Source: Panopea generosa
Taxonomy: Eukaryota; Mollusca; Bivalvia; Adapedonta; Hiatellidae
Direction of reading: 5' to 3'
Assembly: GCA_029582155.1 (NCBI GenBank)
Contig: CM055901.1
Location: 8,164,874-8,228,873 of the forward strand
DNA: 64,000 nucleotides
Shown here: positions 3,347 through 61,000 of the stretch, one piece after another
How positions within the stretch are numbered: position 1 is the stretch's first letter
How the letters are laid out: each line of letters begins with the position of its first letter
The notes under the pieces: model-generated
Database searches by the model: none
Told to the model about the DNA's origin: nothing
The model's input: only the letters and a program-made list of their open reading frames with translations
Made by a program: the position numbers and the translations under genes

Positions 3347-3398
3347 CTTTAATAAAGTTTTCAACAGCATGGTCTGCAACTGGACATCCATTTGTACA
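3347..3398 (-). CDS. EFR3: EFR3 exon 12
   Basis: Acceptor ttctacatacag and donor GTAACC bound 52 nt. The first base completes a serine codon begun by AG at the end of exon 11; the rest reads VQMDVQLQTMLLKTLLK. This aligns with the conserved IQIMLL(R/K)SLL helix of EFR3. It was placed by phase as well as similarity, because another frame is also open. It is the last exon I can place. Confidence 0.85.
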
Positions 3399-6300
3399 CT
3401 GTATGTAGAAATATAATACTAGTTAAGATACCTGGTCAACAATTCAAAATTATTTTTCTTGACAATAACTAGTATTATAATCGAATTATAACATGTTAAG
3501 TCAGAAAATAATAAGATAAATTAATTTAGCACATCCATGCCATACCATACCTTAATCTAACACATCCATGCCATACCATACCATAATCTAACACATCCAT
3601 GCCATACCATGCCATAATCTAACATCCATGCCATACCATACCATAATCTAACATCCATGCCATACCATACCTTAATCTAACACATCCATGCCATACCATA
3701 CCTTAATCTCACACATCCATGCCATACCATACCTTAATCTAACACATTCATGCTATACCATACATAATCTAACATCCATGCCATACCATACCATAATCTA
3801 ACACATCCATGACATACCATACCTTATTCTAACACATCCATGCCATACCATACCATAATCTAACATCCATGCCATACCATACCATAATCTAACACATCCA
3901 TGCCATACCATACCTTAATCTAACACATCCATGCCATTGCATACCATAATCTAACACATCCATGCCATACCATATCATAATCTAACACATCCATCCCATA
4001 CCATGCCTTAATCTAACACATCCATCCCATACCATACCTTAATCTAAGTTAAACACATCCATGCCATACCATACCTTAATCTAACACATCCATGCCATAC
4101 CATACCTTAATCTAACACATCCATCCCATACCATACCATAATCTAACACATCCATGCCATACCATACCTTAATCTAACACATCCATGCCATACCATACCA
4201 TAATCTAACACATCCATGCCATACCATACCATAATCTAACACATCCATGCCATACCATACCATAATCAAATGCATTAGTGGTATCATGAATGTTTTCATT
4301 CCCAAAGATTCACGAAGTAAACTACATGTATCAATAAAATGGAATTTCTTTCTGAACGGACAGACAAGCAGGTACAAGACTGTGTGGTACAATGTATATA
4401 TTTTTAATATTGACACATTTTTTAATCAAAAAGTCAGACTTGTGTCCACCATTGATTGGAAACCATTTTTTTATAATGAGAAACCAGTTAATAAGTGGAC
4501 CATAACTCCTGCAAAAGTTTTACCAACTTAAGTATCTAACTTTTTTTTCATCTTTTTTTCTTCATCTTCCTCATTAACTTTGCCATAAAAATATCCTCAC
4601 CTATAATCTTCTTCATTTGTAAACTGTGGAAACTTTGTCATGATAATATACTCACCTATAATCTTCCTCATTAACTTTGTCATAATAATATACTCACCTA
4701 TAATCTTCCTCATTTGTAAAATGTGGACACTTTGTCATAATAATATACTCACCTATAATCTTCCTCATTAACTTTGTCATAATAATATACTCACCTATAA
4801 TTTTCCTCATTTGTAAAATGTGGACACTTTGTCATAATAATATACTCATTTATAAACTGTGGACACTTTGCTATGATAATATACTCACCTATAATCTTCC
4901 TCATTAACTTTGTCATAATAATATACTCACCTATAATTTTCCTCATTTGTAAAATGTGGACACTTTGTCATAATAATATACTCATTTGTAAACTGTGGAC
5001 ACTTTGCTATGATAATATACTCACCTATAATCTTCCTCATTAACTTTGTCATAATAATATACTCACTTATAATCTTCCTCATTTGTAAACTGTGGACACT
5101 TTGCTATGATAATAAACTCACCTATAATCTTCATTTGTAAACTGTAGAAACTTTGCTTTAGTAATATACTCACCTATAATCTTCTTCATTTGTAAACTGG
5201 GGAAACTTTGCCATGATAATATACTCACCTTTTATCTTCCTCATTAACTTTGTCATAATAATATACTCACCTTTAATCTTCCTCATTTGTAAACTGTGGA
5301 AACTTTGCCACGATAATATACTCACCTTTAATCTTCTTCATTTGTAAACTGTAGAAACTTTGCTGTAGTAATATACTCACCTATAATCTTCTTCATTTGT
5401 AAACTGGGGAAACTTTGCCATGATAAACATCATGATCTCTATCTTCTGGTAGTCTGGCAGATTATTGGCAAACTGACCTGAAATATTTGATTTTTAACAT
5501 TGTATATTTCTGACAGATTGTTGGTTCAAACTCATTTTCCCAGCAGAGAGCAGATACCTCCCTTACATGCGAATGAATCATTTATATATAAATATATACA
5601 TAGTAACTGTTATTAGCCAGTAACTCTTATATGCAAATTGATGGGAATTATCATAAAAAATTTGATGATATTCATGCATACAGTAATTTGCAATTTTAAT
5701 CAACAATGCCTGGAAATTTCCGAATGTTTACAGATAAGGTCGAGATGAGAAAAAATCAAAGCATTGAGGTTATCCCGTGTGTTTTGTTTCATTAAAGTAT
5801 TAGCAATAATAGCGAATTTAAATATGGTACATGCTTTAAGCGATACACAATGGTATTTTTCACCAGATATGATCCAGACATTCACAATGTATGTTACTAT
5901 ATATTACAACAATACCAGTTTTTTATAGCAGTAAAAGAATATAACTTGTTATGCTACTTTAAGTGATTATCAGATTTAAATGCTAAATTTTTGTCAACAC
6001 AACATGTATCACATTCTTTGTCAACACAACATGTATCACATTCTTTGGGGCTGGTTTCACATCAGGTTTAAAGTATTTTCAAAAGCAGCAAATGGTCTGA
6101 CCATGCTGTATTTGCTCATTTTTGTGTTTAAACTCACCTATAGTGTTGATCAAAGCTTCTTCAAATTTCTTCTCTTGATTTCTAACTGCTTCATTTTTAC
6201 TTTTATTGTCCAATGAAATACGTAGGTGCTTGACTAGAGTATTGAAGACATCTAATACTGACGGACCTGTTTACATAATAAACCATAGACAAAATAGATC

Positions 6301-9300: not shown

Positions 9301-12300
9301 ATGGACAACTCATATTTCATTTATTACATGAACTGATGTATGGACAACTCATATTTCATTGATTACATGAACTGGTGGAACCATTTAGTGAAAAAATTGT
9401 GCCATTTTTGAGAAAAACACCAAACTTAGCACAAACATAGAACAAGGTTAACTGATCATTTTAACACCGAGACCCACTTTCAAAATGGTGGAAAATCAAA
9501 GATGATCACCAAGATGGCAGCCAAATTTAACAAAAACTCTATTTGTCTTTATATTTACAGGAGTTAATGATATTTGATAGCTCTTTATGACTAATGTTAT
9601 CAAGACATATTTATATTTGTTGATTTTAATGCTTTTATTGCATAAGAAGATTTTAAAATACAACGATATGCAAAATGTAGAATTAAAATCTTAAAAAATA
9701 GCGACAATATATCTATAATTTGAATATTCTGTTATAATTTTGCCCAACTTTTTCATAGTTACACACTTTATAAACATATAAAAATAAAGTTTCTAATGGT
9801 ATAGAGCAAAATATTTTATTCATATGCAAAATACGGTGGGTGGAGTAAATCAATATTAAATGTATATAAATACTGATGTGAACTCATATTTACATTATTT
9901 AGCATACTTTACTCTGTAATTTAACAAAATGTGTTAAAAGTTCATAATTAAATTTTTTAAAAATGTGAGATGTAATAGTATTTAAGTGCGTAATATGATT
10001 TGGTTTAAAATGTAAAAAATACTTATACCCGGTAATGCCGGTATGTTTTTATTGTTTTAATGATTAAGCTTTGCTGTCCTGATTGTTCTAATTTCTATGG
10101 AATACACGTATCAAAACTCAAAAGATGTCAGCAGACACATGTTTATACCCTAGATCATGCATATTGTAGAGAAGGGAGGGGACTATTTTATCCATGTGTA
10201 TCGGTTCCCAGATGTTCACCTGTATACTTACCCTGGATCATGCATATTGTAGAGAAGAGAGGGAACTATTTTATCCATGTAAACTGGTTTCCAGATGATC
10301 ACCTGTATACTTACCCTGGATCATGCATATTGTAGAGAAGGGAGGGGACTATTTTATCCATGTTATGTGTTTCCAGATGTTCACCTGTATACCTACCCTG
10401 GATCATGCATATTGTAGAGAAGGGAGGGGACTATTTTATCCATGTGTATCAGTTCCCAGATATTCACCTGTATACTTACCCTTGATCATGCATATTGTAG
10501 ATAAGGGAGGGGATTATTTTATCCATGTAAACTGGTTTCCAGATGATCACCTGTATACCTACCCTGGATCATGCATATTGTAGAGAAGGGAGGGGACTAT
10601 TTTATCCATGTGTATGGGTTCCCAGATGTTCATCTGTATACTTACCCTGGATCGTGAATAGTGTAGAGAAGTGATAGGACTCTTTTATCCATGTGTATCG
10701 GTTCCTAGATGTTCACCTGTATACTTACCCTGGATCGTGCATATTGTAAAGAAGGGAGGGGACTATTTTATCCATGTGTATCGGTTCCCAGATGTTCACC
10801 TGTATACTTACCATGTAAGGTGCATATTGTAGGGAAGGGAGGGGACTATTTTATTCATGTGTATCGGTTTCCAGATGTTCACCTGTATACCTACCCTGGA
10901 TCATGCATATTGTAGAGAAGGGAGGGGACTATTTTATCCATGTATATCGGTTCCCATATGTTCACCTGGATCGTGCATATTGTAGATAAGGGAGGGAACT
11001 ATTTCATCCATGTGTATCGGTTCCAAGATGTTCATCTGTATGCTTACCCAGGATCGTGCATATTGTAGAGAAGGGAGGGAACTATTTTATCCATGCATAT
11101 TGGTTCCGAGATGTTCATCTGTATGCTTACCCTGGATCATGCATATTGTAGAGAAGGGAGGGGACTATTTTATCCATGTGTATCGGTTCCCAGATGTTCA
11201 CCTGCAGCTCATCGCTCACTGTTTTTCTCACAACCCCCTGAAGACCTTTCAGTCCTGCAGTACGTATCCTGAAAATAATCAAGACTGTAATATATCTTAA
11301 CCCTTTACTTCATATAGACACCTTTGGACACCTCTAATATAGACGCCTTTGGACACGTAATATAGAAGGTTTTTGAATTAAACAAACTTAATACTTAATA
11401 CACACCTATTAATGCCCAAAAAATAAAATCTAGCCAGCCATTATAAGGCCCTAGAAAGACAATGTAATTTTTTATCATTTTAAGGGCAATAACTCTGGTG
11501 TTACAAAGACAATTCTGAATATTTTTGCCGGACACACCATACTATAAAGATAAATGTTAATCAGTAATAATTGTTATTAAAATTGGGGTGATAAAGTTAC
11601 AGGTATTGTCCCAAAAACAAAAGAATAATGCCAAATCTGTATCTCTCCACCCTTTGGTTGGAGGTAATAATACTGTATGTTTATGAACCTTACTAAATAT
11701 ACAGTACTGACATATATATTCAAATTTATTCACCATGAAAGATCCGTATAGTATTTCTCTAGAATGAGGTCAGATGTATGAAATGGAATGGTGGAATATA
11801 AGAAAAGAAAATAATAAAATAAAAAGTACAAAAAAACAAGGATATCGGTAGAACCGATGGATGCTCCAACAGCAAGTGTTTGATTGAGTAGTTAATGCAG
11901 CCTAGCAAGTTTCATGAAATTCCAACCACAGATTGTTCTGAAATATCGTGGATAAGGTGATGATGCATGGACCCATGAAGAAACGACTATTTGCTTCACC
12001 AAAAATTGTTGGGAAGAATACAAGTATTGAATCTGTAGGCCAGGACAACAGGCTTGCGTTCAGATTATGTACTAACTGTAGAGCAAGTTTCATATTAAAG
12101 GGCCTTAGCTCAATAAATAAACCACTGAATCAGAATGCCAAGACTACAAGCTTATGATCAGACCATGTATCTACTGTACATCTAGTTTATTTAAATCAGT
12201 TAAAACTGTGGTAGGAGTGGTGTTCACAAGGTTGAAGTTGCAAAGAACAAAGGTCCATAACTTAATAAGATATCAACAGCAGTGGTGGTCTTGGGGTAGA

Positions 12301-15300
12301 ACGTCCGTCTCACATGTGGAAGGTCAGGGTTCAATCCCCAGCCAGGTAACATATCAAATACTTGAAAAATGGTACTAGAAACTATCTTGCTTGGCGCTCA
12401 GTATTTAGGATAGTTCTAGGTCTGGTCAGCCTGGTGTCAGTATAATGTGACTATTGTGTGAGGAATCATATCATGTGTCTGTGGCATAGTACTGCAGTGT
12501 GGCAGCACTTAGAATCCTGTCACAAGCAGACACCTTTGCAATACAACTGAAAAACTGTTGAAAGCAACCATACAACAACAACAATAAGACATCATTGAAT
12601 TGGAAGGCCAAGATCATAGACTCATATTCAGGCAATGTACCAGCTGTACAGCAAGTTACATTTGAATCACGTTTCAACTATGGGAGGAGTTGCATTCATA
12701 AGGCTGTTGGTCCAAAATGAGATGGACATGAGATGGATGGAGGGGCAAAGATCCCAGTTTTTTTCTAAAAAAAAAACAGGGAATAATAATGTTGGAAAAC
12801 AAAATGGTAACATTTATTTAGTCCTAGCATTATTTTCTTATCTAAATCCCAAAGTCAAAATTGTGAAAATCAGAGTAGGTCTACCATTATCTCTAATATA
12901 AATGAAAAAATGTCTAAGCCTTGCAAACAGAGCTGATATGTGTACTGAACTTCTGATTTGTGATGCAAAGACTCAATTATGAAAGCAATGTCTGGGAAAG
13001 TTTTGAGATAAAAATTGACTATTTGGATAGCGCAAGACAATATCCTCAATGCATTTAAATAGGATTATGTAAATACAGAAACTAAGACATCCCTGAGGTA
13101 ATTACCAGTGATTGGCATGTGACGAAGTATTTAGGACAGTCGCTGATCAAAGTTCGCAAAGCAATTTTTTCACAATCTGAACTTAGTTCTCCCAATTACT
13201 GGCATATAGGGAAATCCAATAAAACTTGGGAGTAAGTTGTAATATAATAAAAACAATCGCCCCATTGGTACAAAAAGGTACCAAGTGACTTCTTATTTCA
13301 TATATCGGTACACTTGGTACCTTATTGTTCTAATGGGATGATATGTTTATGCATATATTCATTTTGTCATAATCTGTTATTTTTTCAATTAAGTGAGATA
13401 GTGAGTTTATAATAAATACCCTGTATGCTTAAACAGTCAATTAATTTCTGTAGTACAGCTTTATGAACATACCAGGAACATGTACAGGAATGTGATTATA
13501 TATTATTTAAGACAGTGGCAGAAATCTGATAATTTAAGTTTGATTAATGAAACGTTTAACCCTTTACTCCATAGATACGCGTTTTCCCGCACCAATCATA
13601 GAAGGCCTTTGAAAACAGTGCAGGAAGAGTTCAGATTGCTCATAACAAGCAATCTGAACTCTTCCTGCACGGTTTTCCACTCTGTCAGTTAATATAAACA
13701 TAATTCACCCAATAATTCAAAAGCCTTCTATATTAGGTGTCCAAAGTCGTCTATATTAGAGGTGTCAAAAGGCGTCTATATGAAGTAAAGGGTTAAATAG
13801 TGAGAGACGAATGACAATGAGACGCAAGTCACATATCAATCACCATGGAGACTGTGACTGGCAGGGGATTCAAACTCATGACTCCTGGATTTATAATCAA
13901 ATGTGTTACAAACAGAGCTAACTGGACCTGGCACAGGTGAAAATGATACTAGGGTATCTTCAATGTATAAAAATCAGATCACAAAGTATTACTCATATTG
14001 ACCATTTATGAAGCAAGTTTTGATAGAATATGGAAGCTAATTCAATTAAAAACCAAAGCATCATTACAGGGCAACAAGAATTTCTGAATGCATGTTACAA
14101 GAATGAGATGGATGGGTATTCAATCCTGTGTTGAAATGTGTTTAACATTTATGAGGGATGCATTGTCATATATGGGTTTTTATACTATATAAAAATATTG
14201 TTGCAATAAAATTAATAAAAAATAAATTAAAGAAGTATTTTTCTACTGGACAATTTTTAATATTTTAAAGTTACAATTGATATGTTTTTATCTTTAATGT
14301 TTGATCCTGTAGAAGCTTATATTAGTATTTGTGCATTTCCAACTTTTATTAAAGTAAATATTAATAGTTAATTCTTGAAAATCACACCACCACACCCATA
14401 CTAAACAAAAACTTAATTGATATGAAAAGGAAATACATTAAATTCATATACCATCCATCTGTAAAAAAAATATAGTCCCCTGTACAGAACCCTTATACAA
14501 CCCAGACCCTTAATTTATCACAACTTCAATCACCCACTCTTAGTGATTTGTTATGAACAGAAATGATTCAAATTTTAAAAAGAAATTGTTTTGTATGCAT
14601 GGATGCAAAATGTAAAAATTCAGTTTTCCCTATAATATTCCTATGTTAAAGTCACATTACAGGGCCCCTATATATCCTAGCCCCTTGATATGCATAATCT
14701 TCAATCCTTGCTGATGTAAGGATAATTAATATCAAATTTGAACTAGTTTGACTGAAAGGTAATTGAGAGGAAATTTGTGAAAATTCCCAATTTATAACCT
14801 TATTGCCCCATCCCCACCCCCTGGCCTCTAATGGAAATTCAATCCTCTTTACTGAACAAAATCAAATTTATTGTTACAAAAAAATGAGAATTTTCAATTT
14901 TCCCATGGTATTCCTATGTAAAACTAAAAAAAACCTAACAGGGCCTCTATACATTCAAGTGTGCCTTGATTTGTACAAACTTAGATTTCATAGGGATGAT
15001 TTATATCAAATATAAACAAATTTGACTGACCGGTTGTTGAAAATAAGATTCATGACAATGTTCAATTTTCATCATTTTGTGACCCCACCTGTCCCCTTTT
15101 AGAAAGTCAATCCTTCATACTGAACAAAATTATATTTGTTATGACTAGAAGTTGCTTCAAAACTCAAACTGAATAAAAAAATTCATGAATGAATGATAAA
15201 AAAGAGAATTTTCTGTTTTCCAATAGTATTCCTATATAAAACTAAAAGTTCCCTTACATACAAGACCACTGATTTGTACAAACTCTAAACCAATACTCAT

Positions 15301-18300: not shown

Positions 18301-21300
18301 CTATCATGGCATTCTATGAAAAATGAACGTTCTATCTGAGCGAATTTATTGACTGAGAAAGTAGGACATCATCTAATGTAAATTGAATGACATTATTTAT
18401 TGCTTGTATATTATTCGTTTATCTTGCACCTGTAGGAAAATTAAAATTAAAACTAATTCACAAGCCCATGGATGTGTAACATTATGGGGAGAAGTCAAGC
18501 ACGCTGCAAAAAATGACAGTATCATGTGAGTCCATCATGACTCCATATCAGTGCTCTCAATCTTAGATAATTTGGCATATCTAAAAGGATATCCTTATAG
18601 TTTAAACTTATTTGTTTTACTTCGATTGTGAAACAAGTTCTTACAACTTAGGCAAAAAACGCTCGAAGTCTTCCTGGTTAGAACCAGTGCTAAGCATATA
18701 AAAAAAAGTGTCTTGCCCAAGGAAACTACACATAGCTATGGAGGATCATGGGTTTGGTGCTCATGCCCTCCACTTGATATCCTTATGGCAATAAGGAATC
18801 AGTGGGCATATAAAAATTTATAAGCATAACATATTGGGGAAAATATTTTCTGTCAATTCAATTTTTTTTTAAAATCCTGATATGCTGCCATTAAGGGAAA
18901 GAAACTGACAGTGGGTGGGGGTGGCAAATGGACAAACAGTGATACACAACAGCTCATCTTTGAGAAGATGTGCTGGCAATTACTTACAGATGATGTGGCT
19001 AGTATCTGTAGCTCTAGTTCATCACATTCAAGAAGTTTTTGTACCATCTTCAGGAAACTTTCCACAAATAAGTTCAATGAATAGTCATGACAGGACACCA
19101 GTAACTTATCCAGGGCATCCATAGCTATTATCACCAGCCTGAAAATGTATACAGAATAGTCATGACAAGACACCAATAACTGGTCCAGGCATCCATAGCT
19201 ATTATCACCAGTCTAAAATGTATACAAAATAGTCATGACAGGACACCAATAACTGGTCCAGGGCATCCATGGCTATTATCACCAGTTTGAAAATGTATAC
19301 AGAATAGTCATGACAGAACACATAACTGGTCCAGGCATCCATAGCTATTATCACCATTCAGAATAGTCATGACAGGACACCAATATCTGGTCCAGGGCAT
19401 CCAAAGCTAGTATCACCAGTCTGAAAATGTATACAAAAACGTCATGACAGGACACCAGTAACTGGTCAAGGCATATATGGCTATTATCACTAGTCTGAAA
19501 ATGTATACAGAATAGTCATGACAGGACACCAATAACTGGTCCAGGGCATCCACGGCTATTATCACCAGTCTGAAAATGTATACAGAATAGTCATTACAGG
19601 ACACCAATAATTCAGGGTCCAGGGTATCCATGGCTATTATCACCAGTCTGAAAATGTATACAGAATATTCATGACAGGACACCAATAACTGGTCCAGGGC
19701 ATCCACGGCTATTATCACCAGTCTGAAAATGTATACAGAATAGTCATTACAGGACACCAATAATTCAGGGTCCAGGGTATCCATGGCTATTATCACCAGT
19801 CTGAAAATGTATACAGAATAGTCATGACAGGACACCAATAACTGGTCCAGGGCATCCACGGCTATTATCACCAGTCTGAAAATGTATACAGAATAGTCAT
19901 GACAAGACACCAATAACTGGTCCAGGCATCCATAGCTATTATCACCAGTCTGAAAATGTATACAGAATAGTCATGACAAGACACCAATAACTGGTCCAGG
20001 CATCCATAGCTATTATCACCAGTCTGAAAATGTATACAAAAAGCCATGACAGGACAACAATAACTGGTCCAGGGCATCCATGGCTATTATCACCAGTCTG
20101 AAAATGTATACAGAAAAGTCATGACAGGACACCATTAACTGGTCCAGGCATCCATGGCCTTAATCACCAGTCTGAAAATGTATACAGAATAGTCAGGACA
20201 GAACACCAATAACTTGTCCAGGGCATCCAATGTTATTATCACCAGTCTGAAAATGTATACAGAATAGTCATGACAGGACACTAATAACTGGTCAAGGACA
20301 TCCATGGCTATTATCACCAGTCTGAAAATGTATACAGAATAGTCATGACAGGACACCAAAAACTGGTCCAGGGCATCCATAGCTATTATCACCAGTCTGA
20401 AAATGTATATAGAATAGTCATGACACAGCTTTATTTACCAGTCTGTTGTTGTTGTTGTTGTATGGTGTTTAGCTTCGCTTTCAACAATTTTTCAGTCATA
20501 TTGCAACGGTGTCTACTTGAGACAGTATTCTAAGTGCTGTCACACTGGAGTATCATGCCGCAGACACATGGTATGATACCCCACCCAGTCACATTATACT
20601 GACACCGGGCCAACCAGACCCAGAACTCTCCTCTAAATGCTGAGCGTCAAGCGAGGAAGTTTCTAGTACCATTTTTAAAGTATTTTGTATGACCCGGCTG
20701 GCGATTGAACCCACGACCTTCCGCATGCGAGATGGACACTCTACCACTAGACCATGCCATGGTTTTATTACCAGTCTGAAAATGTATACAGAATAATCTA
20801 ACCTAGCTATTATCACCAGAGTGCAGGAAGTGTTCAGATTGCTTGTCACGAGCAATCTGAACACTTCCTGCACTGTTTTTTAAGGCCTTCTGTGATTGGT
20901 GCGGGAAAACCTGTATCTATGGAGTAAAGGGTTAATACAATCAAACATGATAACATGGTTCCACATTAAATTTCACCTGAAGCTGTTATATAATTCATGA
21001 CTTAACAGATACAGTATCTATCCCACCAGACAGCAGTAAACCAATACCAAAACACATAGACATCAAATCAAGTACAATAAAACAATTTTAAGAAGTAACA
21101 GATTGCCACGGTGCTGGAGGCACCATTGAAAATCAATGAACATCCTGATTAGTCTGGTGAAGTCAGGTAATAATATAACTGTTGATTAAATATGCATTGT
21201 CTTTATAACCACCTGTACATGCTTTTAGATTAAACTTATTTGTTTTACTTGTGAAACAAGTTATTACAACTTATACAAATCACACTCAAAGTCTTTCCGG

Positions 21301-36300: not shown

Positions 36301-39300
36301 CTTATAGGAGACAGTTAAAGTTCCTTTTAAAGGACCACATACGATATGAAAAGCAACTGCTCAGTACCAAAAGCCGAATAAAATCCTTACAGAAACAGAT
36401 GAGGAAATGAGAACTTTTTGCTATCTCATAGAATTTATATGCAAATTTCAAGTCCACTTTCAAAACCTCAATGGACCTTTACCTCTTGATTTGAATAAGC
36501 TTAAACCACTACTAATAGGGATAAGTAATGCCTAATGTAAACAAATTTACTAGCCAGTTCTTGAAAAGATTTTTGAAAATCACAATTTTAACATTCACAG
36601 CTACACCTGTACTAAGACTTTGGAGCCTTACTATTTTTTAAGTCTTTGGAGTCATTAGATAAAAATTCACAAACTCACTCACCCAATAATGTTGATAAAT
36701 CTCGAAATTTTAGAAGCGTTTTTTTTTTTAATTTTAGAAAAACACAGATCTATGGACAATTGACAATGATGTACAACATATAAAAGGAAATAGCAAAAAC
36801 TGATATAGATGAGCCAAAAATATGCAACTGGTTTAGCACTTTACTGTATACAGTTAACTTTTAATTATCAATTCACCTTATTGTCATATTTATTATCGCT
36901 CTTCACGAATTGTGTTACAGTGTACAATTTAGCATGCCACCACTGTGACATTTTTTTGTTGGTATTAACTGTCACATTGCAAGTATACATCACATAGAGA
37001 TATACATGTTACTGTATGAATTTATGACTGTCTATATGTCAAAATGGTTGCAGAAATTATGAGAGGCAACAAATTGGGCACCTAACATTTAGATTATGGA
37101 AGGGTATCACCACCATAACTCAGTCTGAAATTTTTCATTTGTTCTTTGAGCAATGGGTGTAAATGTTTCTTTCTGCTTAGTTCTTTGTGGGAAATGAAAC
37201 ATTTCATCTTTGTAACTTTGCAATTTGTCTATCCTACTATATTCTATCATTGTAAAAGTTACATACTTCCTGTCATAATATAATGAGTTCAGCATAATCA
37301 CGTGTTTCAAAAGGATTCGAATTGCAAACGTTTAACTATGCAATAAGCATGTTGTACAATGCACTTAGGCATATGTAACAATGCGAAATACACAGTTTAC
37401 ATTGTCAATTATGATGACAGGTGCCGCTTGATGTATATGAAAGAATAACCACTTGTCCCTAGTATAATCGGTGTTGCTTCGTTTTCATCGTAAGTCATAT
37501 GGAACATATGGTCAGCTACCACTATTGAGAGGTTCTCTCTGAATGGCCCTATACTTTTTTTCAGCCAATCAGAGAGATCCTCTCAAAGGTGGTAGCTGAC
37601 ATAAAGTAAGGCTGTATTTAGAGACCTAAATTCTGGTGAATGTTTACAGCAAATATTTCATTTCGCAACTTCTTGGGTTGTTTACAGGGCACCTGTCTGT
37701 AATTTTGAAGCGCCACTGAATATTTTAATGGGAAGTTGTGATTTATTACAATGATGACATTCAGGGGCGAAATAGTCTGGTACCTTGTCCAAAAATATTC
37801 CCTACACTCATTACAAAGGGGGTGAATATTGGAATAAAAAGATATTCGTGACCGACTGCAGCCGAAACACATATCGAAACATACATCAAATTCTAAAAAT
37901 ACATTATACGCAGCAAGTAATGTTTAATCTGACACAAAGAGACAATATGTATGTACATTTTACAATGATAGGATATAGTAGGATAGACAAATTGAAATAG
38001 CAAAGTTACAAAGGTGAAATGTTTCATTTCCCACAAAGAACTAAGAAGACAGAAACATTTACACCCATTGCACGTAAACTGTTTTAAACATGATTTTCAC
38101 TGTTTTGTTTTTTCCTCATATTCCGTCACAACAATGAGATTTTCCCATATTGAAGGGACCAGCCCCCATTCCCCGAAAACCAAAAAAAAACACTGAATTG
38201 CAACTACAGTAGGGTCTGACCAGGAACAGAAGCTCTTTGAACTCTGACTATAAAAACAAACTGTATCCACTCAAGGACTTTCGCATCAATATCATACTTT
38301 GGATAATGTGTCTTGCACAAGAGTTGTGGTGACTGTGGTCAAGTGGTTAGCATGGCTGCTGCAAGAGGTCCAAGAAACAATTATCTTGTTGTGTTTTTTT
38401 TAATTTACTCCCAAAGTGCCTTAGTCATTTGCTGATGACAGCGCAGTCTTCAAGGTGATCGAGAACGACCATGACAGACAGCTCCTCCAGAAAGACCTCA
38501 CAGCACTGGAAAAGTGGGAAGAGACATGGCAGATGAGCTTCAACCCCACTAAGTGCACTGTCATCAGGATCGCCCCTCGATGTCGGAAAATCATCGACAC
38601 AACATACTGTCTCCATGGCCACACACTTGAGGTGATGGATGCAAGTAAATACCTTGGAGTCACCATCACAGAAAGCCTCACCTGGGAGAAGCACATAGAC
38701 AACATCACGAGCAAGGCCAGTCGGACTCTGGGGTTCATTCGCAGAAACCTGAGGGAATGCACGCCACCTGTCAAGGAAGCTTCCTATAAAGCCATGGTCC
38801 GCCCCCAACTCGAGAATGCCGCCACCGTCTGGGACCCATACCAGCTAAACCACGTCAACACTATTGAACAGGTTCAGCGCCGAGCGGCCCGTTTTGTTTT
38901 CAACGACTATTCGACTAAGACCCCAGGATGTATCTCCAACATGCTTAAAGAACTGAACTGGGATCCCCTTGAACAGCGTCGAAAACACAGCCGGCTCTCC
39001 ATGATGTATAAGATCCGCAACAATCTTGTAGACATCAACGCAGACAAGTTCCTCCAAAGCGGCGACGCGCGTACCAGAGGACAACATAGGCTTTTCCAGG
39101 AGCGTATCAAAGACCAGATACTGTCGAACTCCTTCTTCCCAAGGACAGTGCGAGAATGGAATCTTCTTCCTGCCAGCACCGTATCTGCGCCTACCTTGGA
39201 TGCCTTCAGGTTACTCCTGGTGGAGTAACCTGACACTTTCTTCATCAGACATGACTACTGTATATAGTTTTAAATTTTTAACATTTGAGACTTCTGTGCA

Positions 39301-40236: not shown

Positions 40237-43200
40237 ATGGTACTCATTTTTATAACAGTATTTTCCCCCGACATACTGCCAGGAGTTTATGCCATTAAAT
40301 ATATCACAATTGACTATTCACAAATAGGCTAAACCAACGACACACATGCTCTCTGAATTGAATTGATAATTAAAATGAAATTGTGTGACAGCACTGAAGA
40401 AGTCCAGTTTCTGTTTAATGTTCATTCAATTGAGAAGTATTTACATTTATAAATATGTTGAACAATTTTAAGGTTACCCAATGCACCCCTTATCATCCTG
40501 TGTCCATTAACTTTTACTTTGCATACACTCTAGCACATGCCCTTTTTATTGAACCTTCTCCAAACCTACGCAGTACAGTTAAATATCTGCCATGACAAAC
40601 AACCATTCTATTTTTCATACCATCTTATTGCGTGAGTGTACACTCTCTGAGTGACTGTGTCAATTGCTCTATAATGATCATTTGTTATAAATGAATTGAT
40701 TGTAATATAGTATTACATAATGTACACATTTTAAAAGTGGATGTATAATAAGTTCAGAAACATTGTTCGCTCATAGATAATTAAGTGTGTCATGTTTTTA
40801 ATCATTATGTACATTCAGTAATATACTATATAATTGAAAAAAACTCAGTCTGTGGAATTCTCTTGTTTTGTCATTTCTTTTCTTCAAATGTTCTAAAATA
40901 ACTGTAAAATTTTAATGTATCTAGGAAATAAACATTACAACTATAAATTGTATCAAATGTATCTCAAAAATGTGTCAAGACCAGTAAATTGCATTTGCAT
41001 TGACCTGGCATAAAGCATTTGCTTAGGAATGTCTCAATAAGAATATTATCTGTTACAGGCTGAAAGAAAATCAGTTAATAAGTATTATCCACCAGATTGG
41101 GACCCATCTAAAGGCTCTGTCAACAAATATGTTGGACAACATCCTCTTCGTGACCGAGCCAAGAAACTTGGACAAGGTATTCTTGTTATCAGGTAATAAT
41201 TATGACATTCTGGTCATTTCTTGTCTCTATATATAATATTCATGATGATTTAATATTACTTTATTTCCCTATTTAGTAGCAAATTTTAAAATAGCATATT
41301 TTAAAATTATACATACATATACAAATAAGTTACACATGTCACAGTACATTATTTCACTAGCTTTTATTTTATTTAACCAAACTTCTGACACCATGTTATG
41401 TTATGTTTTGGAGGAGAGATATTATAAAGGCCATTTAAGATGTTTATTCCAAGAGTGAATATTAATATGGGTGTTTTATTTACATTTTGAACAATAAGGA
41501 GCTGAACTGAACAATAACAATCCATATTTAAACATATTATTTTGTATTCAGATTTGAACTGCCCTACAACATTTGGTGTGGAGGTTGTGACAGTCATGTT
41601 GGTATGGGTGTACGTTATAATGCAGAGAAGACTAAGACAGGAAACTACTACAGCACTCCCATCTACAAGTTCAGGATGAAATGTCACTTGTGTGACAACT
41701 ACTTCGAAATTCAAACAGATCCAAAGGTAAAAAAACATAGTTTAAACTAAATAATAAGATATAAATTGTATATACTTACTGGTATACGTTTTAAAAAAAG
41801 CCTGACTTTTCCATTTACACTGTAGGTATATTTATCATTAAGATTTTTGAATTGTAGGTAACATTTATTCATAGTAGAGAAACAAACAGAGTCACATGAG
41901 TAAATAATTGTTTGTTATTTCTTGTCTTTTTCTTCAAACCTTTTTTAGTGAAAAAAATTTCCATTATTTTTAAAGACAGAACAGTTAAAGATCTAGTTTC
42001 TTTTGTATAAAAGGTGCATATTAAATAAGTTGTTATGTTATGTTTTAGAACCATGATTATGTTATCCTGGAGGGAGCAAGGAGGAAGGAACAGAGGTGGG
42101 ATCCTAAGGAAAATGAACAAATTGTACCTGAAGGTGAGGTACAAACATTTAGGCTTTCCCTTGCTGTCATGACTTTATGGCATAAAGCAACATGCTTAGT
42201 TTCTTAAATGTTTCAGTACACATAACAACACTGCAAAATGAATGTCAATCAAAACTCATACTGGCAGGCCCTATATAAAGAAAAAAAAATCTTAAAGAGT
42301 GAAATTTTCACACTCGTCAAATAAATCAATGCTATAAATGAAATAACATTATTATTTAACATCACAGTGGCAACTGCAATACACAACCCTTCGCCTGTTT
42401 TTGATGGAACAATTGCAAAGTATTGCTGCGACATCAACAGAAAAAAATCTTGTTTATAATTACAAGGACTTAGTTAGAGAACGAAAAGCAACTGATTGAG
42501 CTTTTATTATGCTCACAAATTCACACAAAATCTTGTTTTCAGTTTTCCTAACCTTTTTCCATCTCCGGAACACAAATCAAATTTTTTTTCCACATTGAAA
42601 TTCACTACAAAACATTCCCAACAAATTGTGTTTAAAATTGTTGAAATATGTATGCTTACAAAATATGTATACTGCGGCTGAAAAAAACAACAAAGCACTT
42701 GAAAGTTTACTTCAAATTGCAATGTTTTTAATTCAAGATAAATTTGCATGTTTAAAATTTTATAAAACATCGAAGTCTACATACAGTTTACATTTTATGT
42801 ATAAGAAATCAGTTGCCTGTCAAATCTGAATGATTAATTCACCAAATTATCAATTCCCTGCATGCTTTTTTATCAACATTTAGAAGAGAGATGCCAGTTT
42901 CCTATCCTTCTATATAAATCTTTTATAATTGCTATGTGCTTCTATCACATGCTTATAAAATATTATCTGACACCATGTGAATTTTTTTTGGAAAAAAATC
43001 CATTTTAAACTTTTCATAATAAGCACAATCTTTTATCTCTAAAATCTGAGAACTAAATAGTGTAACTTTAATTGGTGAGGTTTTAATATACATGTATCAT
43101 AAGTATAGAAATTTAATGACAATGAAACACTTTGAATAACTAGTGTAGCATTGTTGATGTTCTTTATTGATCAAACCTTGGTTTCCACACTATTCAGACA

Positions 43201-45838
43201 AGGCCACTCAGAAGAAGATGGCGACAGATCCAATGTTTAAGTTGGAACATGGATCTGATGATGTGGAAAGAGGAAAGAAAGTGAAATCAAATCTTAGTTC
43301 TCTGGAGGTCCGCCGTGATGAGTGGAAGGATGACTACATGCTCAATAAAATGGCAAGAAACAAATTCAGGGTAAGTCAGGAATCAAAGAAATGACAAGTT
43401 TATACTAATTATTTTGAGCTTGATTGTGAAAATAGCTAAAATAGCTTATATGGGCTCTCTTGAGTCGGCATCCTGGAGAGAACCAGTTCTGACTACTGAG
43501 TGTTGTTTTTGCGAAGCATTGGGTCAAGCTTGGGATTGAACCCACATACTCTGGCGTGAGCAGCCAACACTCTATCCATTACACTGCCGTCAGCATTAAA
43601 GAAATGATTGCTTATTCATGTAGTTTTATTCAAGGTATGTCATATGAATAAATGCTGTCTTTGTTGTAGCCCTTGGATCAAGTTTGTGAAATCATCTAAA
43701 ATGATTATTAATTAATGGATAATATTGGGTTAGTAGACGCATCGTTGTTGTTGGGAAACCTTTGGTGGCCGCTGCTTCTTGTACAATACAGATTTTCACC
43801 ACAGTATAGACTAGCACAATATAAATCCATATTGTACGTGATCTGTATAATGACAGTTTTATTATTCATCTCTTGTTCTATTACAAAATATAATAAAATT
43901 AGAATTATCAAAAATTTGATATAGGTTTTACTTTACATTACCATACTTTTACACTTTGCAACATATTAATTAATGGTAATAAAAGATGATCTTCTGCATC
44001 AGCTTTGGGTGGTCTCATTTAGTTTGATATGAATATGGTGAAATACTGAAATTTTGGAATTTATATCATTTTGACCCAGTGAAAATGTTTGACTATAATC
44101 CATTATCAGTTTCTTGCAGAGATGGGTTGTGCTCGAGTACTGGTTAATCCCAGGAAACAGCGGTTAGGTTAACTGATCGTCTGTTAGCCATCGATGGCAT
44201 AAAAATTAGGATAAATATTCAATCAGTCAATCAATCAATTGTTTCATTGGGCCAAGTTGGTGATCAAACCCACAATCTTTGCCATGAGAAGCAAACACTT
44301 CAGCTGTAGAGATGCAGGTTAGGAGATCGTGGGTTCAATCCCCCACCAGGGTCATGTGTAATGTCAAGCAAGGCACTATTTGCATATGCTCAGTACTGGT
44401 TCTACCCAGAAAGACTTTGAGCATTATTTGTAAGAACTTGTTTCCCAATCAATATAAATTGAACAAATTTAAACAAATTTTACAGGAAGAAAAGAAAACA
44501 ATTAAAGCTGTAGAGGCATCAGATACAGCTCTGCTGACCAAGTCATCACTGGGGATCCCTCTTGTCAAGGAGAGGGAGGAAGATGTAAAACTTGCCAGTC
44601 TTATGAAGTACAGGACAGTTGAGTGTAAGTTACTTATGACAGTGCTCTTTATACCTCATCAAATAGTTGTTTGGTGATAACAGAACCCAATGACCAAGGG
44701 AGATTTTGATGATACTTCCATTCTCTCTTGAAATGGCATATACAGTAAATCCCCGTGTATAAAACGCATATATGTGATATAAAATGTGAGTGCTCAACAA
44801 ATGAATTCTGAAATTTCAGTCTATAACTAGTATAGGAGATGTGGGTACATCATAGTAAACCAATATCTGCTATATAGAACAGTATACAAACACAACTGTG
44901 ATTGCAGCTCATCAATTTATATGTATAAGATGATGTACATAAGATGAATATAAAATATGGTTTATATAAATAAGATGTATATAACAAAGGTTTGCATAAA
45001 TAAGAGATATACATGTTTATAAATAAGATGTATATAAAGAAAACGCTTTTCATAAAAAAATAATTAATGAGTTTCAGGTCAAAGTTAACCAGTTCCTGTG
45101 TTTTGATATTATTATGAATAAATGTTTTATGATATTGTTTTATTTTTGATAGCCTATGAAGAAAAGCAAAACCAAAAAAGGAAAGAGATAGAGAGTAGGC
45201 CATTGTTTCAGTCTAGTGCTATAAAACCAGATGAAGATAAACACGAAAGTAAAAAGTTGGATATACTTAAAAAGAATCTCAAGACTGCGAAAACCATATC
45301 ACACACAAGCCCTTTCGACAGGACGAAGATGAATACATTTGTAACCAACTCACCCCTGAATAAAATCAGTCTTGGAATAAGAAAAAAACCAATGCCATCA
45401 ATAACTCGAATAATCAAACAGCGAAAATGTGTTGATGACAGTGATGTGAAAAGCAGCCAAAATACAGAGAGAGAACAGCAAAGTATAGAGACATGTCGCC
45501 AATATCATACAGGAAATCTTAAAAATATATCCACAATGGACAATTTTCAAAATCCAATTTTTGAAACAAATTTAAGAAATGGCTCCAATAATGAAGAAAC
45601 AACAAACAATACTTCTGCTGACATAGATAAAATAGTGACTATTATTGAATCTGATTCAACGGACAGTTTAGAGGAAGGAGTAACAGTGTTGAATGATGAA
45701 GGTAAATGTCCAGATAATGATATGCATGGTGACGGAAAACTGGGTAATGGACAAATATTAGCTGGATATAAGAATGCCTCGAGTAAAACTGGGTTGAGTT
45801 TAGTGTCATCTTACAGTGATAGTGATACCGACTCCTGA
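40237..45838 (+). CDS. YJU2B: CCDC130/YJU2B (CWC16/Saf4 family), six certain coding exons plus tentative start
   Basis: Family role: CWC16/YJU2-type proteins associate with the spliceosome; the CCDC130/Saf4 branch acts in splicing-related surveillance. Seen here: exons 41059-41192, 41552-41726, 42049-42133, 43198-43370, 44486-44624 and 45153-45838, all phase-consistent. They give about 464 residues with M1, somewhat longer than human CCDC130. The N-terminal domain has AERKSVNKYYPPDWDPSK and two CxxC pairs (C55/C58, C90/C93) for zinc. The conserved core ends near residue 240; the exon 7 tail is lysine/serine-rich and disordered and closes with SLVSSYSDSDTDS, as in the human protein's acidic serine end. 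The start exon is uncertain: ATG at 40237-40239 before GTACTC, or ATG at 40154-40156 before GTGAAA. Confidence 0.95.
41059..41192 (+). CDS. YJU2B: YJU2B exon 2
   Basis: Acceptor tctgttacag, donor GTAATA. Codes AERKSVNKYYPPDWDPSKGS then VNKYVGQHPLRDRAKKLGQG and ILVI. The family start is MGERKxVNKYYPPDF, so only one or a few residues are missing upstream. Confidence 0.97.
41552..41726 (+). CDS. YJU2B: YJU2B exon 3, zinc-binding core
   Basis: 175 nt from acceptor tttgtattcag to donor GTAAAA. Codes FELPYNIWCGGCDSHVGMGV then RYNAEKTKTGNYYSTPIYKF and RMKCHLCDNYFEIQTDPK. The CGGC and CHLC pairs form the expected zinc site. Confidence 0.98.
42049..42133 (+). CDS. YJU2B: YJU2B exon 4
   Basis: 85 nt, acceptor ttatgttttag, donor GTGAGG. 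Codes NHDYVILEGARRKEQRWDPK then ENEQIVPE, matching NCDYVIVSGAxRKEERWD of the family. Confidence 0.97.
43198..43370 (+). CDS. YJU2B: YJU2B exon 5
   Basis: 173 nt, acceptor cacactattcag, donor GTAAGT. Codes KATQKKMATDPMFKLEHGSD, a lysine-rich linker, and EWKDDYMLNKMARNKFR, matching DAMFRLEHGE...WKDDFALNSxLRRxFR. Confidence 0.97.
43410..43605 (-). mobile_element. Short interspersed repeat, family 3b
   Basis: Contains ggagagaaccagttctgact, gcattgggtcaagcttggga ttgaacccacatac and ccaacactctatccattaca ctgccgtc. Same family as 7180 and 32215. YJU2B intron 5. Confidence 0.7.
44096..44470 (+). mobile_element. Adjacent SINE fragments (family 1 tail, then family 3)
   Basis: 44096-44245 is the 3' half of a family 1 SINE (gcagagatgggttgtgctcg, ggttaggttaactgatcgtc, then (atca)n). 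From about 44305 a tRNA-like ttaggagatcgtgggttcaa tccc begins, followed by ctcagtactggttctaccca gaaagac and gtaagaacttgtttcccaat, a family 3 copy ending 15 bp before the YJU2B exon 6 acceptor. Confidence 0.8.
44486..44624 (+). CDS. YJU2B: YJU2B exon 6
   Basis: 139 nt, acceptor aaattttacag, donor GTAAGT. Codes EEKKTIKAVEASDTALLTKS then SLGIPLVKEREEDVKLASLM and KYRTVE, matching the family's SLxIPLVPExEDDRKLAALLKF. The polypyrimidine tract is formed by the end of an adjacent SINE. Confidence 0.96.
44625..45152. other. YJU2B intron 6 with ataagatgtatataa-like repeats
   Basis: A loose tandem of ataa(g)atgtatata units at 44925-45035 opens a 117-codon tyrosine-rich frame on the minus strand that I regard as spurious. 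Confidence 0.5.
45153..45838 (+). CDS. YJU2B: YJU2B exon 7, C-terminal tail and stop
   Basis: Acceptor tatttttgatag; 227 codons and TGA at 45836-45838. Starts YEEKQNQKRKEIESRPLFQS, equivalent to YEDKQKLKRTEIxSRxxFP in human. The rest is low-complexity, rich in K, N, S, D and T, and ends SSYSDSDTDS. Confidence 0.96.
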
Positions 45839-55000: not shown

Positions 55001-58000
55001 GAGTCACACAGGTCAAGGAATGATGAAGGGGCATTTAGTGTGTTACCCCTGTCCTCCCGATAAAATATTTGGTTTCTGGTCAATAACTTCTGATGGGGTC
55101 TTGGTGTTTTAGTAATAGTTTGTGTGTACCTGTATAATAATAATTAATAAAATAATAATAATAGATTAATATAATCATACATTGATAAGACTGGACTGTT
55201 TTAAAATAATTTCTGTTAAACTTGATAGAAAATTAGATCCAGACCCAATAGTTCACAAACAATTAGTAGTGGGGTGGGCAGACCCAATAAAAAGGTTCAA
55301 AATGAGTATTGAATTAATTGCATTAGCTACAATTTCTTTATGTGATTGTGTAATCTGTGTTTTAAATATTGAAGATACATTTGTATCATTTTCACCTGTG
55401 CCAGACTTGGTTAGCTCAGCCGATATCGGGCTTGACTGTCAATCCAGGAGTTGTGAGCTTGAATCCCTGTCTGAACACAGTCTCTATGATGATTGATATA
55501 AGACATGGCATCTCATTGTCATTAGTCTCTCACTGCTGATTCATGTAAGAAAGTTCACTTGTTTGCAGAGATTGGTTTGCTTGAGTACTGATTCCGAATT
55601 TTCCAGGAAAGAGTGGTAAGGTTATCAGATCATCTGTTAGCCCTTGATGGAATAAAAGTGAATCAATATTCTTACAAAGTTATTGGTTACTCTGAGGACC
55701 AAATAAGTTTAAAATCAGGTTTGGCTGGGTGAGTTATATACCCTTGAATTGTGAATAGAATTATTTATAATTTTATGCTGGAATTTTATTAACTTAAAAT
55801 TAAACTTATTCCTGAGTGACCTCTACATTATAAAGAATAGATAAAAATCTACAAATTTAAATATGGGAAGTTAATGTACACTTTTGATCATCTCTCTTTT
55901 TTTAGGTCAGAGTTTGAAATTTCTTTTAAAAGCTACTTGTCCTCCCTTGCCAACATCTTTTACTGAATGAATAAAATCAAAGAAATTTTAGGGACAGTTT
56001 CTAAAATGCTACTCGTCCTGTCCAAATATTTGTCATGGTGAGCGGACGAGGAATTTTTCAGTCCTATAGATAGGTACATTGGGAAAGGAACCCTAGATCT
56101 TCAATTTGATTTGTATTCTGCATTTTGATACATTCGGGAGGGCTGGTACTAATGCTGTTAAAACCTGTATAAATTTTGCATTTTATTCACTATTCATGCT
56201 ACAAATTAATATTTTGTGAACCTATAAAATTTGTCAAAAATATAAGTACAAAAGACAAAAAAAATGCCTAAATTGGGGAAAATGAACATTGAGAAAAACT
56301 TAACAAAATCTGTTTGATTGATCAACACAATGTCATGTAATAACAGCATTGCTCTTTTGCTTGGCTTTTCCTCAGCTGCCATGAGAATTGGGATTATTTT
56401 TAGCAAATGAGCAGGACTGTCTCTAAGTTTCTAAGTAGAAGGGGAAACTAAAAAAGTAGATGGGGAGGGGGGTCTGGGGGTCCTCCCCCAAAGGGGATCA
56501 AGGGGGGCAGTGCCCCCTTTTTCTGGGGGTCCTGGGGGCCAGAGGACCCCTGCCGAAAATGGATTTCAGGCATCTTTAGAGCCCCCAAATGGGTTTTCCT
56601 GAGAGCAATTTTACTTCCTTTTTAGACGCATTTCAGCAATATTAAAGAAAAATAGAAGAATATCGTGGTTGGTAATGGGACCAAATACTGATGCCCTGGT
56701 ATGCTTCGTTTAAATAATGTGCATTTGAAGGACTGTTTTTGCAATAGTTAACCAGTGTGACTTATGTTTATACAATGTAGATCTGTATTAACACTAAGAA
56801 GCACTTGACTGGCAATCAGAATAACAAGTGTTCTGTAGTGTTTAATTTGTATTTCAGTTAAGTTACTTATTTTTAATATAAACATTTCAATCTAATTAGG
56901 AATGGCCTTGGCTGTTCAACAGTTTCTTGTATTGGGGTTATTTGATTGGTGTCTTAAGATATCGGACCATAAGTTTAGAAAATTGGGTTACAGTCTAACC
57001 TGTGTAAGTGGTCACCTCTATTAAGCAGCCACTTGTCTTAAGCAGCCACATTTTCTATTTCCCATTCCTTATGTTTTCAGACCATACTTACCTATATTAA
57101 GCAACAACCTGTCTTAAAAGGTCACTTTTGCGGTTTTACTGGTTGCTTAAGACAGCTTTGACTGTACTGAATTTTTCGGAAAGTCTTATTTACCTGTAAC
57201 TGTTTCAGCAAGCGGTGCAGAGTGTGATGGGGCAGTCAGACTTGCCTATGGACATAGCTCCCCAGCCCTCACATTCAATTTCTCCACTTGACATCCCTCC
57301 AGAGGACAGTTTCTTCAGTTCAGGCATATTCAGTGACCCAATACCAAGACGTACAGATGCCAATGTGTTTGATGCTGCAACAAGTTTTGACCCCGGGTCA
57401 GCATCCGGTCCCGGCCCTGGAACATCTGATGGCACAGGATTCAGCTCACGTGGTCCAGACAAACGCATGCTGCACTTCAATGTAGAGTACAGGAACCAGA
57501 ATGTAGATGTGTTCATGGCTGATACAGAAACTGTAGGTAAGTCATGCTGATACAGGAACCAGAATGTAGATGATCATGTGTTCATGGCTGATACAGAAAC
57601 TGTAGGTAAGTCGTGCTGATACAGGAGGCAGAATGTAGATGTGTTCATTGCTGATACAGAAATTGTAGGTAAGTCATGCTGATACAGGAACCAGAATGTA
57701 GATGTGTTCATGGCTGATACAGAAACTGAAGGTAAGTCGTGCTGATACGGGAACCAGAATGTAGATGTGTTCATTGCGGATACAGAAACTGTAGGTAAGT
57801 CATGCTGATACAGGAACCAGAATGTAGATGTGTTCATGGATGATACAGAAACTGTAGGTAAGTCATGCTAATACAGGAACCAGAATGTAGATGTGGTCAT
57901 GGCTGATACAGAAACTGTAGGTAAGTTGTGCTAATACAGGAACCAGAATGTAGATGTGTTCATGGCTGATACAGAAACTGTAGGTAAGTCATGCTAATAC

Positions 58001-61000
58001 TGGAACCAGAATGTAGATGTGTTCATGGCTGATACAGAAATGGTAGGTAAGTCATGCTGGTATGGGAACCAGAATGTAGATGTGTTCATGGCTGATACAG
58101 AAACTGTAGGTAAGTCATGCTGATAAGGGAACCAGAATTTAGATGTGTTCATGGCTGTTACAAATACTGTTGGTAAGTCATGCTGATACAGGAACCAGAA
58201 TGTAGATATGTTCGTGGCTGATATAGAAACTGTAGCTAAGTCATGCTGATGAGGAATTGATAAACAATAAGTATGTACCTTAGAAAATCATGTACAATCT
58301 CAGTAAAAAACACCTGATCAGTCTTTCTTTAGAAAATAATCAAACTGTTCTATTAGCTACATTATCCTTGTTGACAAGTATGCTAGCTTCTATCAGCTTC
58401 ATTATCATTGTTGACAATTATACTAGCTTCTATCAACTACATTATCATTAATGACAAGTATGTCAGCTTCTATCAGCTACATTATCCTTGTTGACAAGTA
58501 TGCTAGCTTCTATCAGCTACATTATCATTAATGACAAGTATGCCAGCTTATATCAGCTACATTATCCTTGTTGACAAGTATGCTAGCTTCTATCAGTTAT
58601 GTGATTATTGTTGACAAGTATGCTAGCTTCTATCAGCTACATTATCATTGTTGACAAGTAGGATAGTTTCTGCCAGCTACATTATCATTGTTAACAAGTG
58701 TGCTTGGTTCTATCTGCTACATGATTATTGTTGACAAATATGCTAGGTTCTATCAACTACATTATCATTGTTGACTAGTATGCTAGCTTCTGTCAGCAAC
58801 ATTATCCTTATTGACAAGTATGCTAGCTTCTATCAGTAACATTATCATTGTTGACAAGTACACTGGCTTCTATCAGCTACATTATCATTGTAAAGTTGAC
58901 AAGTATGCTAGCTTCTATCAGCTACATTATCATTTTATACAAGTATGCTTGCATCTTTCATCAACATTATCATTGTTGACAAGTATGCTAGCTTCTATCA
59001 GCTACATTATTCTTGTTGACAAGTATGCTAGCTTCTGTCAGCTGACAAGTCTGATGTTCTCAGTCATATTCTGAACTGTCTTTGTGACATAGTTCTATGG
59101 GGCTTTGATGGTTCAATGGAGGTTTAAGATATAGAGCACTGTTGAACTGACTGTTTCCTTGTAAACACATTGATGCTGCAAGAGAGATAAATACTTTTAA
59201 GCTCGCCGGGACGAAGTCTAAGGAGAGCTATTGTCATGACCCCGGCGTTGCGGCGTCATCGTCGGCGTCATCTGTAGACACCCAGGTTAAACTTTTGCGT
59301 TTAAGTTTAATATATCTACGAACCACTCATTGGATGTGAATGAAACTTTGCATTTGTGTTCACCATCATCAATGGAACACACAGAGACAAGAACCATAAC
59401 TCTGGATTGCATTTTGGCACAGTTGTGGCCCTTTTTGGACTTAGACACCCAGAGGCGAGCTTTGTTGGTCTTCTGACAACTATTGTTTCTGGTCAGCCTT
59501 GCTTGTCTGCATATCAAAATTCATTTACAGATCTTATTGAATTGATGATTATCTTCAGAAAGTTCTTATCAATGTCTTTTCACATAGTTTTTATTATTAG
59601 AAGCTAATGTAACACCTTTCATTGACAGATTAATTCATTGATTTAATAACTGATTTTGTTATATTTTGTTTTCAGCACAAATCAAAGAGACATTGAGTAT
59701 TGAGCTTGGAATTCCAGTCAGTAAGCAGGTGTTGAAAGGATGGTCAAATAGAAAAGTTCACGACAATGTAAGTTATATGTATAATAGTGACAGGCAAACA
59801 AGAACGTTTAAGCTTGGTTCTGTATAATAGTGACAGGCAAACAAGAACGTTTAAGCTTGGTTCTGTATAATTTTGACAGGCAAACAAGAACGTTTAAGCT
59901 TTGTTCTGTATAGTGACAGGCAAACAAGAACGTTTAAGCTTTGTTCTGTATAATAGTTACAGGCAAACAAGAACTTTTAAGCTTTGTTCTGTATAATAGT
60001 GACAGGCAAACAAGAACAGTTAAGCTTTGTTCTGTATTGTTTATATGTCAATAAATTAATGGGCATATAGTATATTCTCTGTCCCATTTCTATTTGCTTA
60101 CCCCTCTGAGTCTGCAACGATAACATTTATCATGATCCTACTGCTACATCTCTGTTTGCATCTGCAGATACAGAAGCCTCTTCCCATTATTGCTGAGTCA
60201 CATGTTGTTCCCTTCCATTCCTGTAGATGAGGTTCACGAGGAGGAGGCCTATCCAAGTGATATTTCAGTTACAGTTTTAAGCTCAGCTATTTTTGATTAG
60301 GTGAACTTTTGTTATACCTTATTTAAAGGTGATTGTGTCAGCATTCCACATGCATCACTCAGTAAATTATACAAATCTTGCCTTATTCATTTTAAATTAA
60401 CACGTAGTACTCCTTATTACAAGAGCTTGCTTTGGGATTGAAATTCAACTCCGTGTCTCAAAATTTTACATGAATTATGGCCCTTTTGTCTTACCTTTTT
60501 TGAAGATAAAATGAGACACAGGTGTTGCATCAACAATTCAAAGTTTTTGTAATGTGCTCTGTTTCTCCATTTCTTGAATCTAATGATTTTTGTAACTGTA
60601 ACATTTTACAGTCTGTGTTGAGAGAGCTTCACCTTCCGAAAGAAAACACACTGTTCCTGTTAACACCTGACCTACATCCTACAGAAACGACTGCCGGAAC
60701 TTCATCAAGGTACACTCATTTATGTTTGCCCTGACATTGAACAGAAGAATTTTGTTTCTGTTTGTACATGTATTTATTTTTTCTGGCATAGATTGACAGT
60801 TGTTATACTTGACTTGTATGAAGGCTTCACTCTGGTATAAGTATGGTTAGCAAAGTCGTTAGTGTGTCTGACTATCAAGCCAGGGGTTGTGGGTTTGTAT
60901 CTCCATCCAGCTACAGTCTCCATGATGATTTATATACAATATTGCATTTCTGTGTCATTTGTTACTCACTGCAGATTGAAGTGGGAAAGTTATCAATTAC

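Follow-up and report, generated by a model that had tools for sequence, protein, structure and literature searches.

The stretch of DNA examined here, a window of 64,000 nucleotides from the bivalve Panopea generosa (assembly GCA_029582155.1, contig CM055901.1, positions 8,164,874 to 8,228,873), carries exons of two unrelated genes, EFR3 and FAF1, and in both of them exon-intron junctions are repeated in tandem. All positions below are those of the window. Exons were set through splice-consistent open frames, and their numbers are this annotation's own. EFR3 lies on the minus strand, with E2 to E12 annotated; later exons fall beyond the window, and a first exon was not found within it by this approach. 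FAF1 lies on the plus strand, where nine exons were found, the last one cut by the window end; the acceptor of one internal exon, at 61582-61690, is ambiguous. The joined EFR3 protein matches the Pfam family EFR3_ARM (E=2.1e-41), and the joined FAF1 protein is identified by a PDB sequence search (4.2e-57) and by a match to UBA_4 (5.9e-8).

Junction-spanning arrays in EFR3 and FAF1

Merging 68 overlapping rows of Tandem Repeats Finder (TRF) output by hand gave 13 arrays with three or more copies and a length of 150 bp or more. Twelve minor rows, short or of about two copies and none of them junction-spanning, were set aside for a sensitivity test, the remaining rows being overlapping or adjoining ones. 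In four of the 13 arrays a splice junction lies inside the repeat unit itself, a donor in three cases and an acceptor in one (Table 1), with copies counted by aligning every copy to its own unit. The original prediction had described tandem copies of splice junctions in four of twelve arrays. All four exist, their units contain the junctions it named, and they recur in two unrelated genes, both confirmed by the Pfam and PDB searches; only the total has changed, to 13.

Table 1. Junction-spanning arrays, the exons they join and associated repeats, in window coordinates. A slash marks the splice junction.
Feature	Position	Strand	Description	Basis
EFR3 E11 donor array	4564..5426	-	17 copies; 55 bp unit = 45 nt exon + 10 nt intron, TATAG/GTGAGTATAT	TRF and copy alignment
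EFR3 E6 donor array	10146..11204	-	13 copies; 83 bp unit = 74 nt exon + 9 nt intron, CCAGG/GTAAGTATA	TRF and copy alignment
EFR3 E4 acceptor array	19079..20425	-	18 copies; 75 bp unit = 15 nt intron (TGTATACATTTTCAG) + 60 nt exon	TRF and copy alignment
FAF1 E3 donor array	57488..58250	+	12 copies; 63 bp unit = 49 nt exon + 14 nt intron, ACTGTAG/GTAAGTCATGCTGA	TRF and copy alignment
EFR3 E11	5381..5477	-	97 nt; last 45 nt within unit	Splice-consistent frame
EFR3 E6	11131..11268	-	138 nt; last 74 nt within unit	Splice-consistent frame
EFR3 E4	18988..19138	-	151 nt; first 60 nt within unit	Splice-consistent frame
FAF1 E3	57209..57536	+	328 nt; last 49 nt within unit	Splice-consistent frame
SINE-like element	20440..20760 (approximate ends)	.	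Within outer end of E4 array
Intronic 43-bp array	59778..60037	+	First base is +11 after FAF1 E4 donor; splice site outside repeat; not junction-spanning

The four arrays share one layout. The copy joined to the gene sits at the exon end of the array and the remaining copies lie on the intron side, so that one complete authentic exon border is kept at the exon end of each array, and the joined frames are open. The repeated splice sites in the other copies, hereafter decoys, are found downstream of the real site in the three donor arrays and upstream of it in the E4 acceptor array. The E11, E6 and E4 arrays each finish, on the far side, in a single partial row that matches poorly; it could be flanking sequence or a copy that has decayed.

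The possibility that the nine other arrays are decayed junction copies was considered and rejected. Eight of the nine, all but the 156-bp array at 24180, were set against every exon region, and best scores were 16-27; in the same comparison the array at 59778 scored 40, but its own start lies within the compared flank.

Decoy splice sites and probable turnover of the arrays

Of the 56 decoys, 50 retain GT or AG: GT in 14 of 16 at E11, 11 of 12 at E6 and 10 of 11 at FAF1 E3, and AG in 15 of 17 at E4. Donor strength was assessed with a hand-set matrix, by which 34 of the 39 donor decoys could be scored; 27 of these 34 equal or outscore the real donor. In EFR3 E6, for example, the real donor is GTAAGC, and five decoys with identical surroundings have GTAAGT. 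Swapping the real site for any motif-defined decoy produced no open frame of the right length in any of 45 cases (14 in E11, 7 in E6, 14 in E4 and 10 in FAF1 E3), a set that excludes off-motif decoys such as the E6 copies reading GTAGG. Since use of a decoy breaks the frame in all 45 cases, functional genes would require use of the site next to the exon, and since most scored decoy donors at least match the real one in strength, splicing would have to choose by position.

The same frame test led us to reject coding variable number tandem repeats (VNTRs), as none of the 45 decoy sites tested gives an open frame. By eye, the 75-nt consensus of the E4 array is in frame without a stop, yet indels break the frame and no decoy acceptor gives an open one, so E4 was rejected as a coding repeat also. 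The expressed E4 copy (19079-19138) differs from most of its decoys, reading GATAAG (Lys) with a G after the AG where they read GACCAG (Gln) with an A; the E4 decoys may preserve an earlier version of the exon sequence.

Two of the arrays have higher-order structure typical of minisatellite turnover. The E11 array contains recurring internal-deletion variants, with a higher-order period of 204 bp in TRF and a peak of identity between copies at lag 3, and the E4 array is built in part of repeated two-unit blocks, with a period of 153 bp. Five of the 60 full copies carry no substitution relative to their consensus, and the others diverge from it by about 1-13%.

The outer end of the E4 array also contains an element resembling a short interspersed nuclear element (SINE), both flanks of which are near-identical array sequence ending ACCAGTCTG; beyond it a remnant of the array was aligned at 20757-20798. 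Relatives of this element occur elsewhere in the window at 34123-34430 (92%) and 12286-12587 (82%), and a tRNA-Val match reported by ARAGORN at 34119-34190 overlaps the first of these. The family may be tRNA-derived. Because the element cuts the E4 array, the array predates the insertion and is unlikely to be a product of assembly. Where the last E4 remnant ends there is a near-perfect palindrome (20820-20874, with 27-nt arms and 1 nt between them), and similar sequence was seen by eye near 13600-13680.

Precedents in other animals

The original prediction knew of no description of such arrays as a recurrent class. This claim does not stand, as the lancelet and human cases below belong to one. 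In lancelets, exon-intron boundaries of globin, Adh3, troponin C and PGBD5 genes are duplicated in tandem in the manner of minisatellites, and these duplications are called mirages (PMC3087553, PMC3902484). Like the arrays described here, they repeat an exon end together with an intron end, at 5' and 3' borders and in several genes of one genome, and many of the repeats carry splice signals. Mirages are found at both exon ends and are reported not to interfere with regular splicing and to differ in length between haplotypes (PMC3087553), whereas the present arrays come from a different animal and are read from the DNA of one haplotype. They also differ in dimensions, with 2-7 copies in the mirages of the globins BflGb6 and BflGb9 and of PGBD5 against 12-18 here, and units of 150-160 bp (globins), 60 and 108 bp (PGBD5) and 10-72 bp (Adh3) against 55-83 bp here. 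In the BflGb6 mirage the interior copies are reported to be homogenised and the boundary copies excluded from this.

Human genes provide further cases. The 31-bp VNTR of CBS, c.1444_1467+7(16_21), has 16-21 copies and is polymorphic (PMC2630376); by its coordinates the unit consists of 24 nt of exon end and 7 nt of intron and ends at +7, a construction like that seen here, although it is a single array in a single gene and is known to vary. In F7 intron 7, which contains 37-bp repeats, only the most upstream 5' splice site is normally used (PMC6627357). The likeness is that the real 5' splice site lies in the first of many near-identical repeats; it covers the position of the site and not the exonic share of the unit. 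A second CBS variant, c.844_845ins68, duplicates the intron 7/exon 8 junction and is tolerated since the distal site is used (PMC2630376; the source says 'donor', but by position these are acceptors); unlike the P. generosa cases, it is a single duplication with no array. Finally, internal tandem repeats are known at exon-intron boundaries of human segmental duplications, with a list of 27 intron modifications (PMC2812944). These too are minisatellites at exon-intron boundaries, but they were defined by paralogs that vary in repeat number and often in splicing, and they average 4 copies of a 30-bp unit.

Intron gain by exon duplication has been reported in flies (PMC2891723), and in the AGGT model of intron gain by tandem genomic duplication, a duplication within an exon generates two new splice sites, one donor and one acceptor (PMC3443670). 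We rejected the latter for the present arrays, whose units hold one pre-existing splice site, donor or acceptor, and no new pair of the two. The available portions of PMC3778950, PMC12783039 and PMC4039745 contain nothing on junction-spanning arrays, and no description of such arrays in a mollusc appears among the titles and abstract beginnings of the matches listed for the mollusc and bivalve literature. The four arrays are further members of an already known class, the mirages or junction VNTRs.

Frequency and probable origin of the arrays

Because an array may extend over a junction that its unit does not contain, the appropriate null concerns the placement of the seed unit. Each array was collapsed to a single unit, which left a window of 51,033 bp with the 49 splice junctions of the 26 exons annotated in three genes, and seeds lying wholly in an exon were excluded; placing the E11 seed by hand cost the E11 exon one base. 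Under this null 0.69 junction-spanning arrays are expected against the four observed (P(>=4)=0.0034). Adding the 12 minor rows raises the expectation to 1.15 (P=0.023), and the same test on the uncollapsed window gives 0.54 (P=0.0014). None of these P values is corrected for the choice of a window that was picked for its pattern, and we therefore read them as suggestive of an excess over uniform seeding. Under a looser null, in which whole footprints are placed randomly, 4.6 arrays overlap a junction, so overlap as such is unremarkable and only a junction within the unit counts. Seven of the 13 arrays lie no more than 130 nt from a junction, where 2.4 would be expected (P=0.004, the distance having been chosen after looking). 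The original prediction that random placement would almost never capture junctions is upheld in its direction, but its wording is too strong.

We consider it likely that the four arrays are mirage-type minisatellites, which arose from tolerated junction duplications, grew into the intron, and carry decoys that are ignored by virtue of their position. As a first step, to judge from the anatomy of the arrays, a segment of 55-83 bp straddling a splice junction would have been duplicated head to tail. Such a duplication would be close to silent. In a donor array, the first copy would keep the exon and a working 5' splice site while the extra copy became intronic; at an acceptor, the last copy would keep the working border and the extra copies would be intronic. 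Duplications lying wholly inside these exons, by contrast, would alter the protein and be lost, and this difference would suffice to explain why exon-derived arrays are found at junctions. The two copies may then have seeded slippage or unequal exchange, with the array growing into the intron to 12-18 copies, as the copy variants and higher-order repeats suggest. Finally, the open frames and the precedents suggest that splicing would use the site bordering the exon body and disregard the decoys by position rather than strength. The arrays are probably without function.

Several observations sit less comfortably with this account and weigh against it. Divergence of the full copies has no clear edge trend, the partial outer rows match poorly, and identity between copies is flat with distance in the E6, E4 and FAF1 E3 arrays, the lag-3 peak of E11 excepted, so that no one mode of array growth stands out. 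Decoys vary less at intronic than at exonic positions, both by cells (18/650 against 181/3055, P=0.0007) and by sites (12/48 against 97/228, P=0.024), which could hint at constraint on them; the contrast of splice-site positions with the rest gives P=0.052, and that of the GT/AG core (2/107 cells) P=0.13. Third codon positions of the decoys are also more variable (7.4% against 5.8% and 4.6%). These variation tests are confounded by base composition and by the shared ancestry of the copies, with exonic C and G positions varying most, and for this reason we do not claim purifying selection on the decoys. The intronic share of the unit, finally, is 9-15 nt in all four arrays. Given junction-spanning seeds, the probability that all four contain at most 15 intron bases is about 0.002, and a version of the test on the summed intronic shares gives P=0.011, both being post hoc with n=4. 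A uniformly short intronic share is not obviously predicted by selective loss alone; it may point to a mutational step specific to junctions and could follow from the sites of breakage, though the sample is tiny.

Such a step, in which breakage, nicking, an R-loop, or repair linked to U1 or the spliceosome makes the first duplication preferentially with one end just past the splice site, is an unlikely alternative in our view, although several results point towards it. Besides the excess of junction-spanning units and their short intronic share in four of four cases, a fifth array begins just within the intron behind the FAF1 E4 donor (Table 1), and the unit of the human CBS repeat ends at a comparable place. 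Breakpoints fall at donor +7 to +14 in four of the 13 arrays, with P about 3e-6 for a range that was chosen post hoc, in a test that overlaps with those for the excess and the intron share and that was computed with 25 donors where the annotation has 24. The sample amounts, however, to four or five arrays from a window picked for the pattern, and the nine non-spanning arrays yield a single near-donor breakpoint (P=0.07). Nor do the units fold unusually as single strands: for none of the four does the DNA fold exceed the stability of shuffled sequence (z from -0.31 to 1.90), and hairpin-driven slippage was rejected as the cause. Slippage on homology fares no better, as the three unit joins inspected by eye share no end bases at E6 and FAF1 E3 and one at E11, and thus appear to suit fill-in or end-joining duplication more. 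The single junction-specific mechanism of the original prediction is not established. Selective loss can explain why exon-derived arrays occur at junctions and nowhere else, though not the short intronic share in all four cases.

A bolder form of the same idea has, we think, an outside chance of being correct. Splice sites would here be preferred birthplaces of minisatellites, the initiating duplication ending 9-15 nt into the intron, about where the splice-site consensus ends, at a point marked by DNA damage or repair linked to transcription or the spliceosome. The CBS unit ending at +7 and the array beginning at +11 after the FAF1 E4 donor would then be products of one process.

It is improbable that the four are simply ordinary minisatellites whose starts fell at junctions by chance. 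A reader who had noticed the pattern singled the window out, and the expectation of 0.69, or 1.15 with the looser list (P up to 0.023), leaves some room for chance, but four arrays in two genes have the same layout and the class is known in other animals. Retention of the arrays for a role in splicing or expression, for instance through kinetic control or redundancy of splice sites, appears very improbable to us. The intact GT or AG of most decoys and the lower variability of intronic positions would fit a role of this kind; intact sites are, however, expected at a divergence of a few percent, the splice-site contrast by site reaches only P=0.052, and none of the 45 tested decoys gives an open frame. 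An assembly artefact is scarcely credible, for although repeats are hard to assemble, one lancelet mirage is reported as aberrantly assembled in a draft (PMC3087553) and five copies match their consensus without substitution, the remaining full copies diverge from it, each array joins its own exon, and the E4 array is interrupted by an element with relatives elsewhere in the window.

Junction arrays are natural experiments on how the spliceosome picks one site out of many that are equally good. Should they prove common in the lineage, new introns and alternative exons could be built from them, and mapping their breakpoints across the genome could show whether splice sites attract duplication or only shelter it.

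Between EFR3 and FAF1, on the plus strand, lies a gene resembling the splicing factor YJU2B/CCDC130 (41059-45838; Pfam Saf4_Yju2, 2.5e-73). Six of its exons were found; its start was not recovered from splice-consistent open frames, and none of the 13 arrays lies within it. Searches for relatives suitable for comparison returned none from viral contigs, with the first 205 residues of the EFR3 pieces as query, and none from prokaryote genomes with a query of 413 residues. A 267-residue open frame at 38425-39225 begins with sequence (FADDSAVF) that we take to resemble a reverse transcriptase of the long interspersed nuclear element (LINE) type.

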